Source: Marinobacterium lutimaris
GTDB taxonomy: Bacteria > Pseudomonadota > Gammaproteobacteria > Pseudomonadales > Balneatricaceae
DNA length: 64,000 nucleotides
Direction: 5' to 3'
Assembly (NCBI RefSeq): GCF_900108065.1
Contig: NZ_FNVQ01000003.1
Coordinates: forward strand, 434,001 to 498,000
The notes below the pieces were generated by a model. That model did no database searches. It saw only the letters and a list, made by a program, of their open reading frames with translations, and was not told where the DNA came from. The position numbers were made by a program, and so were the translations under genes. Below are positions 27,026 to 29,934 of the stretch, piece by piece. How positions within the stretch are numbered: position 1 is the stretch's first letter; the number at the start of each line of letters is the position of its first letter.

Positions 27026-27721
27026 TCAGCGCAACCCTCTATGTCTCGCTTCGTCCAGCACCGCCAGCAGAACCTCGTCGATCGTCATCTTGGTGGAATC
27101 AAGAATAATTGCATCAGGCGCCGGTTTAAGGGGAGCGACGGCTCGATTCATATCGCGGTCGTCACGTGCCCTGATATCGTCCAGTATTGCTTCAAGGCTA
27201 GCACCCAGTCCCTTGCTAATCAACTGGTTATAACGGCGCCTGGCGCGCTCTTCCGCACTGGCGTCAAGATAGATTTTCAACGGCGCTTCAGGGAACACCA
27301 CAGTCCCCATGTCACGACCGTCGGCAACCAACCCCGGCGCGTGCACAAAATCACGCTGACGACTGAGCAAAGCTTCGCGTACCGGGCCTAGTGCAGCGAC
27401 TACTGAGGCATCCGCACCCACCTCTTCGGTACGTATCGCCAGGGTCACTTCCTCCCCTTCCAGCACGATCTGCAGCTCTTCATCCTGCTCGCCGGCCAGA
27501 AACTTAACGTCCAGATGAGCGGCCAGCACCTCCAGCGCCTCGGTATCATCAAGGCTGACGCCATGATGACGTGCCGCCAGCGCGGTCAAACGGTACAGGG
27601 CGCCACTGTCGAGCAAGTGCCAGCCCAGCGAACGGGCTATCAGTTTGCAAAGGGTACCCTTGCCAGACCCACTTGGGCCGTCGACAGCGATAACAGGGAC
27701 CTCTTGTTCACGGCGGGACAT
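27026..27721 (-). CDS. cmk: Cytidylate kinase
   Basis: The protein is 231 aa. The P-loop is [18 protein letters not shown], the CMP-binding region includes [13 protein letters not shown] and [15 protein letters not shown], and the lid is RARRRYNQL. It phosphorylates CMP and dCMP. Its ATG overlaps the tyrA-aroA stop by one base (TGATG). It is followed 28 bp later by rpsA. Confidence 0.97.
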
Positions 27722-29934
27722 CAGTCCTCCTCCTTAAATAAAGCAATTCCAATACGTCGGGCCAGATCAGCAAACTCGGGACAAAAGCTACCCACCGATT
27801 CGCAGCCGGCAATATCGAGCGGACCTGCGGCCCGCTGCGCCGCGATCGTTAGCGCCATGGCAACCCGGGGATCGCCGCCGGAATCAAGCCGGCCACCTCC
27901 CAGAGCTCCGCCGCTAACGCTCAGCTCGTTGTTCTTCACGCTCAAAACCACACCCAACTGCTCCAGTGCCTGACACATAAGTGTAAGCCGGGTGTTTGAC
28001 AAAAACGTATCGTTCTCCGGCAAACTCAGCCGCGTTTCGCCCTCTGCGCAGACGGCAGCGACCAGTAATGCAGGGCACTCATTCAGCGCAAGCCGGCTAA
28101 GTTCATCGGGTATTCTGACGCCCTGCAGCGCGGCATGTCGCACGCGGATGTCAGCTACCGGCTCTCCACATTCTTCGTGAGCATCCAGCAGCTCTATATC
28201 CGCCCCCATCTGTTTGAGGATAGTCACCAGTCCCATACGCGTAGGGTTGATGCCTATATGCTCGAGCAACAGCTCGGCGCCCGGCGTAATATTTGCCGCC
28301 ACCAGGAAAAAGGCAGCCAGAGAAAGATCGCCGGGGATGCGCAGCTGGGTACCGACCAGGCGCTGACCAGGCTCGATACAAATATGCTCAGTTTCCTGCT
28401 GCAGACTCACGCCGAAACGGCCGAGCATTCGCTCAGTATGATCGCGGGAGACTCCCTCCTCTTCGATACACAGGCGGCCCCGGGTATAGAGACCTGCCAA
28501 CAGCAATGCTGACTTCACCTGGGCACTGCCAACACTCAGCGCCGCGCCGGGGCTCTGCAACTGTGCAGGCATGATTTTCAGCGGTGCTCGGTGGCCGTCA
28601 GCGGTATCGATCTGTGCACCCAGCGCCCTGAGCGGCTGCACCAGGGTACGCATCGACTCGGTGTTGAGCTGGTCGTCACCACACAATTCAGTGGCAAAAT
28701 CCTGCCCGGCCAGCACACCGCAAAGCAGACGCATTGAGGTTCCCGAGGAGCCCAGGTAGATAGGCCCAACCGGCGGCTGCAGTCCATTCAGACCAACGCC
28801 ATAGACACGAACCCGCCCCTGGTGTGGCCCTTCGATCACCACGCCCAGATCGCGAAAAGCCTGCAGCGTAGCCAGGCTGTCCTCACCATCAAGAAAACCG
28901 TCGATATCGGTAATGCCATCCGCCAGCGCCGCCAGAATAATCGCCCGGTGTGAGATCGAGCGATCACCGGATACAGCGATAGAGCCGGAAATTTTCCCGT
29001 CCGGGCGCACCAGAAAGCGGGCTGGTCGCTGCTGCACCTGAGGTGAATAGGCCGAACGGGCGAGGATGCGGGAGAAGTGCTCGCGGGCGGAACGTGCGCG
29101 GGTAAAAATACCCAGCAGCGCCTGACTATCTCCGCGATCTACCGCATCACGCAGACGCGAAACTCCGGCGGTAAAACGGTCGATCTGCGCCAACAGCTGA
29201 TCCCGGTTGGCAAAACAGATGTCGTGCCACATGCTCGGGTCGCTGGCGGCGATACGGGTAAAGTCGCGAAAGCCACCGGCGGCATAGCGGAAGATGTCGG
29301 TATTTTCCGCCTCGTGCGCCAGCGTATCCACCAGCGAGAATGCCAGCAGGTGCGGCAGATGACTGGTTGCAGCCAGCACCTCGTCATGACGACTCACATC
29401 CATCTGCAGCACTTCGGCACCCACCGCCTGCCACATACGCGCTATCGCCAGAGTCGCCTCGGGGGCTGACTCGGGCAGCGGTGTCAGTATCACCTTGCGC
29501 CGCACGAACAGGTCGACATCGGATGCGCCGACGCCGCTTTTCTCGGCACCGGCAATGGGATGACCAGGCACAAACCCAGGAGGCAGTTCACCGAACAGCG
29601 TGCGTGCCGCCAGCACCAGGTTACCCTTGGTACTGCCCACGTCGGTAATCAGAGTATCTTCGCGCAACCAGGGTCGGATCTCGGCGAGCACGGTTTCCAT
29701 CACCTTAACCGGCACTGCCAACAGCACCAGTCCGGCTTTGGAAACCTCTTGACCCAGATCTTCCCCGATACGGTCGATCACCCCCAGCGACAATCCCAGT
29801 TCACACTCTGCCCGGTTCAGGTCAAAACCGACGACCTCGTCGACCAGTTTGCGCTGTTTCAAAGCCCGGGCAAGAGAGCCACCGATCAGGCCGAGGCCGA
29901 TAACCAATACGCGGCCGGTGGAAAACTTCAACAC
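27721..29934 (-). CDS. Prephenate dehydrogenase fused to an AroA-like (EPSP synthase) domain
   Basis: The protein is 737 aa and starts at GTG (29932-29934; TTG next), overlapping hisC. The TyrA half (1-295) looks functional: Rossmann loop [28 protein letters not shown] and [19 protein letters not shown]. The second half (about 305-737) has the AroA fold and length, but catalytic positions differ (E. coli numbering): K22 is R325 (GDRSISHR), R124 is E426, D313 is N618, K340-E341 is L645-S646 (FLSNTR for VKESDR), and H385 is P689. S23, R27, Q171, R344 and R386 are kept. The frame is unbroken. Such fusions are normal in Pseudomonas relatives; this degeneration is not. EPSP synthase activity is doubtful. 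Confidence 0.85.

Follow-up and report, generated by a model that had tools for sequence, protein, structure and literature searches.

Dead domains in shikimate-pathway fusions that are backed by a separate enzyme are already known, as the available portions of two reports attest (PMC9074039, PMC1173090). In Candida albicans, the DHQase domain of the fused protein Aro1 is dead through active-site substitutions and, according to the text available, its death accompanies a separate, unrelated enzyme for the same step, Dqd1 (PMC9074039). The TyrA–AroF protein of Pseudomonas syringae is the same fusion as the one considered here, and the accessible part of its description reports an EPSPS half degraded alongside a laterally gained stand-alone aroF (PMC1173090). 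The PRK14806 fusions of Pseudomonas, Acinetobacter and relatives match ours in architecture, in position within the operon and in sequence (977 bits); ours differs from them in that its AroA half lacks the catalytic residues.

An altered active site in a TyrA–AroA fusion

The window, by which we mean the whole 64,000-nucleotide stretch of DNA analyzed, contains a tyrA–aroA fusion gene at positions 27721–29934 (minus strand). Its open frame starts with GTG and encodes 737 amino acids with the PRK14806 architecture; the product matches the Pfam families PDH_N, PDH_C and EPSP_synthase, and the match to the NCBIfam model PRK14806 is full-length (residues 7–732; 977.3 bits versus a curated cut-off of 902). 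The TyrA (prephenate dehydrogenase) half comprises residues 1–290 (29065–29934, minus strand) and retains the conserved TyrA columns. The AroA half, which has the EPSP synthase fold, comprises residues 306–737 (27724–29019, minus strand); it clears the NCBIfam aroA cut-off by 11 bits (298.6 versus 287.25) and fails that of murA (39 versus 392.7 bits). We read the gene order as serC, pheA, hisC, tyrA–aroA, cmk and rpsA, with the names other than that of the fusion presumed from the sequences and the known operon. The next gene (27026–27721, minus strand), taken to be cmk (cytidylate kinase) on the basis of its own sequence and that operon order, has a start that overlaps the fusion stop codon as TGATG (27719–27735 region), and it is preceded by the ribosome-binding-site-like AAGGAGGAGG at 27726–27735 (minus strand), within the final codons of the dead domain.

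Among the matches listed, the nearest named record to the fusion is from Marinobacterium (63%). A plasmid-collection search with the fusion returned 100 records, all below 60% identity (the best 5 of the 100 being listed). Two records listed as P. aeruginosa plasmids (CP075839.1, 75877–78015; NZ_CP042268.1, 129591–131729) bear a nearly full-length TyrA–AroA fusion with 51% identity to that of the window, an unusual location for this gene.

Residues were called, in E. coli numbering, from an alignment of 102 fusions with what we take to be the sequence of E. coli AroA. The window's AroA half reads K22R (residue 325; 28960–28962), R124E (residue 426; 28657–28659), D313N (residue 618; 28081–28083), K340L and E341S (residues 645–646; 27997–28002) and H385P (residue 689; 27868–27870), all on the minus strand and all at positions that we take to be catalytic in EPSP synthases. 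N94S (residue 396) is a further loss, and the position of E. coli K411 (residue 716) is S, where intact fusions from genomes lacking class I AroA have T. S23, R27, S169, Q171, R344 and R386 (690) are retained. These calls agree with the preliminary description, which had reported the same catalytic substitutions in an open frame, the retention of S23, R27, Q171, R344 and R386 and an intact TyrA half; its re-reading of the codons holds for the residue changes but misplaced the Leu-Ser pair by six bases, as this pair lies at 28002–27997 and 28008–28003 read T-F. D313N is confined to the window copy, and D is present in 30 of the 34 dead copies. An alignment of only three sequences, tried for these calls, misplaced R124 and K340, and the register became clear once fused relatives were added.

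The domain also keeps its length and fold, as had been claimed: the predicted structure has the two-lobed EPSP synthase fold (mean pLDDT 82), with domain packing that is moderately sure (pTM 0.66), and the nearest solved structure is A. baumannii EPSPS (5buf_A; TM 0.92 by target length). A bifunctional name would need a catalytically equipped AroA half, and the window's lacks K22, R124, D313, K340, E341 and H385. We infer from these residues that the fused AroA domain has no EPSP synthase activity. Loss of H385 by itself is no proof of death, because the H796A variant of Candida Aro1, a residue taken to match H385, keeps about 20% activity according to the portion of the study available (PMC9074039).

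A second AroA and the fate of the fusion in relatives

The genome, 99.4% complete, carries PF00275 three times: in the fusion, in a gene (L002) whose sequence, by eye, looks like that of MurA, and in a class I AroA of 427 residues. The class I gene lies on another contig, has the catalytic residues and scores 472.8 against the aroA cut-off of 287, in keeping with the earlier prediction of a true aroA elsewhere. With presence called at E 1e-60, class I AroA was found in 56 of 116 family genomes. In the copies read from 50 of these 56 (G064, G071, G103, G123, G124 and G128 were left out), K22, S23, R27, N94, G96, R124, S169, S170, Q171, D313, K340, E341, R344, D384, H385 and R386 are unchanged throughout, and K411 is present in 49, with a gap in the remaining one. 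The class I copy of G011 clusters with those of other families (support 85) and is apparently a separate gain. The class I AroA of G020 (L140; genus g14) is 85% identical to that of the window genome, compared with only 76% for GyrA, and its neighbors in the tree are copies from g10 and g6; it was therefore probably transferred inside the family.

We read fused AroA domains from 99 family genomes and 3 from outside. The other 17 of the 116 family genomes have TyrA alone (G016, G098–G102), fragments (G103), split fusions (G053, G106, G108, G116 and G125), a nearly full-length fusion (G046), no fusion-like match (G070 and G128) or no match (G048 and G109); the incomplete sequence of the non-family genome G035 was dropped. 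With the intact class drawn leniently (it includes G092, which has S169N and R344Q, and some copies with G96A) and the dead class graded (genus g6 keeps K22, R124, K340 and E341, with R344, D384 and H385 gone), 54 of the 55 fusions from genomes in which class I AroA was undetected are intact (52/53 in the family, 2/2 outside), compared with 14 of 47 where it is present, the other 33 being dead. Because these 54 fusions retain K22, N94, R124, D313, K340, E341 and H385, chance is ruled out as an explanation of the losses. Within the family, the class-I-bearing genomes divide into 33 dead and 13 intact of 46; the non-family G031 is intact and is counted, despite its class I gene, among the 55 intact copies of the column statistics (retention, S3P positions and shuffles). 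H385 is lost in all 34 dead copies, its replacement (P, A, Y, L, I or S) differing between dead lineages. The alignment with relatives, a check that the preliminary description had proposed, thus confirms the changes and shows that they recur; none of the outcomes named there as refuting appeared in what was examined, and the seven active, unfused enzymes taken from this order all keep K22, R124, K340, E341 and H385.

The lone dead fusion without a detected class I gene is that of G007, whose assembly (2.4 Mb, 90% complete) has chorismate synthase. The gene two places from the window genome's class I aroA has only a 33% match in G007 versus 74% in the control G005, and for this reason we suspect that the G007 assembly lacks the class I aroA region.

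Two further patterns were seen in these alignments. The fusion of G092 (L201; g12), a genome with class I AroA, has S169N, A170S, R344Q and G96A with the other catalytic residues kept, and may be in the course of decaying. The second pattern concerns residue 331 (28942–28944 in the window; position 28 in E. coli): all 46 family fusions that coexist with class I AroA, whether dead or intact, have A there, and all 52 intact family fusions without it have S, although the class-I genomes are not united on the species tree. Either the change was convergent, or the gene was transferred, or the tree is wrong.

A 70-genome gyrA+TyrA tree requires four changes to explain the dead-or-deleted state, and AU tests identify three safe losses: in a large clade, in G011 and in G093 inside g12. 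The hypothesis that the dead copies arose only once is rejected with G011 included (AU p 8e-11, G093 left out). We claim at least three losses rather than the four of the best tree because a clade uniting g3 with g1/g4/g6/g10 survives the AU test (p 0.5). A clade of all class-I genomes is rejected (p 0.016) but not after removal of g5 and g14 (p 0.48). A tree of the AroA domain only, in which the class-I-bearing genomes group and two losses suffice, counts against the figure of three; we rank it below the gyrA+TyrA tree because its long branches meet. Comparison of class I with loss yields three independent pairs on starred branches, too few for an association test, across which class I goes the same way in 0.9 of them on average and the opposite way never.

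Constraint on the dead domain

We estimated dN/dS (omega) by pairwise maximum likelihood on pairs with moderate dS, of which pairs from the same genus are not independent. Across 15 dead within-genus pairs (10 from g3, 2 from g6 and one each from g1, g4 and g10), omega of the dead AroA domain is 0.056–0.123 (median 0.094), with a likelihood-ratio statistic against omega 1 of at least 135. The corresponding values are 0.058–0.093 for intact domains with class I (4 pairs) and 0.012–0.054 for those without (29 pairs). Between the window's copy and that of its nearest relative, both with K22R, R124E, K340L, E341S and H385P, omega is 0.035 in one lobe and 0.067 in the other (dS 2.4 and 1.6). The dN/dS comparison suggested in the preliminary description therefore reveals purifying selection among copies that were already dead, and the fused AroA domain combines this selection with lost catalytic residues, as in a pseudoenzyme. 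Together with the second aroA and the recurrence in relatives, this supports the earlier proposal of a retained non-catalytic role, and the specific role is only narrowed down. Constraint is weakened overall, because the ratio of AroA to TyrA dN is about 2.6 in dead pairs, compared with 1.1 in intact pairs with class I and 0.5 in those without. To judge from the four intact pairs with class I, relaxation seems to precede residue loss.

This constraint is unevenly distributed. Measured over columns conserved in intact fusions, retention in segment 351–388 (28771–28884, minus strand), which is conserved better than any other part of the dead domain and is a candidate TyrA contact surface, is 0.96 in dead copies versus 0.77 in the seven active unfused enzymes of the order. 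The remaining ten segments go in the opposite direction, and the active unfused enzymes are lower only at the short stretch 511–534 (0.71, 5 columns). None of 2000 column shuffles reached the contrast at 351–388, and four lineages each show it separately (0.94–1.00 versus 0.52–0.72 elsewhere). Pooled omega of this segment is 0.009 in dead pairs and 0.018 in the 29 intact class-I-less pairs, whereas in the catalytic C-lobe stretch 641–690 (27865–28014, minus strand; K340, E341, R344, H385 and R386), the most relaxed part, it is 0.189 versus 0.028.

Six g10 genomes (G016, G098–G102) have lost the AroA domain by deletion and encode TyrA alone. At one such locus (L219, 1001–2027), a TyrA of 316 amino acids is followed after 75 bases by cmk, with no trace of a broken frame. 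The domain is therefore dispensable in this one subclade, as represented by the six genomes examined. All six have a change at TyrA H286, a residue that fusions conserve, and it is the only one of 87 conserved TyrA columns changed in at least three of them, although this may be a single event. Together, the retention contrast, the low omega and the change of H286 in domain-less genomes suggest that segment 351–388 forms a surface that serves the fusion rather than catalysis, most probably a TyrA contact; it perhaps packs on TyrA near H286 of the last helix.

Explanations for the retained domain

We assign a probability of roughly 60% to the reading that the dead AroA is a folded pseudoenzyme domain kept as TyrA's partner after a class I takeover. 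A class I AroA from outside would have taken over EPSP synthesis, after which the older, TyrA-fused AroA would have lost its PEP-binding and proton-transfer residues in three or more lineages of the gyrA+TyrA tree. The dead domain would have stayed as a folded, non-catalytic partner, and it may steady or tune TyrA. Another possibility, which we hold tentatively, is a ligand sensor, in which the domain would bind S3P or a like ligand in an N-lobe half-site and signal to TyrA. Using position sets that we presume to be the S3P contacts and the PEP side, we find the six N-lobe S3P contacts (S23, R27, S169, A170, Q171 and the R at residue 497) unchanged in 34/34 dead copies, where 41 of 113 comparable N-lobe columns are unchanged overall (hypergeometric 0.0018), and five PEP-side N-lobe positions depleted among unchanged columns (permutation 0.003), although both sets were fixed after part of the pattern was already visible. 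The EPSPS central domain contacts the S3P carboxylate and phosphate, as stated in the accessible part of one study (PMC8983318). However, the C-lobe S3P contact K340 is lost in 23 of the 34 dead copies, and the same N-lobe residues could be retained for the fold. The more specific proposal, that the dead domain has repeatedly turned into an S3P-sensing regulator of prephenate dehydrogenase because fused AroA, while still alive, was already both a contact and a coupling partner of TyrA, is doubtful.

The raised dN, the relaxed catalytic stretches, the excision of the domain in one subclade and the overlap of the cmk start with the fusion stop codon would all fit a slow relic, that is, a functionless domain kept because a misfolded tail harms TyrA or for the sake of the open frame and the cmk ribosome-binding site. 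Frame keeping nevertheless fails to account for an omega near 0.1 domain-wide and 0.009 at 351–388, and as a sole cause on behalf of cmk it is ruled out by dN/dS; a constraint from folding only should track the active unfused enzymes, yet the correlation with them is weak (Spearman 0.12, p 0.07, 219 columns). We therefore find a relic improbable. A divergent EPSP synthase or a new enzymatic activity would agree with the retained fold and with scores that still pass the NCBIfam cut-offs (PRK14806, 977 versus 902; aroA, 298.6 versus 287.25), but the replacements at catalytic positions, such as H385, vary between dead lineages, which have no new catalytic set in common: where intact copies are conserved, the only recurrent changes are S331A and C476A (74%), and S331A occurs in intact copies too. 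We give this last idea almost no credence.

These genomes amount to a natural experiment in which a second enzyme lifts the catalytic demand and the leftover constraint reveals the non-catalytic part of the fused domain. They open a test of whether TyrA–AroA fusions exist for physical coupling. They also call for caution in annotation: the PRK14806 model names the protein bifunctional, and assigning a glyphosate class from the fused gene would presumably describe the wrong enzyme.

Our searches of the open-licence literature turned up no earlier description of this case, and a full-length, selected and recurrent bacterial example with a measurable shift of constraint looks new. The Candida Aro1 case, as far as the available text describes it, is fungal and concerns another step and fold, whereas the replacement here is a homologue of the same fold; a Candida strain without the DHQase domain had no growth defect, whereas here it is selection on the dead domain that was measured (PMC9074039). 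In P. syringae TyrA–AroF, the accessible portion of the report describes a deletion of about 200 residues, in contrast to the length and frame kept under selection here, across 34 dead copies (PMC1173090).
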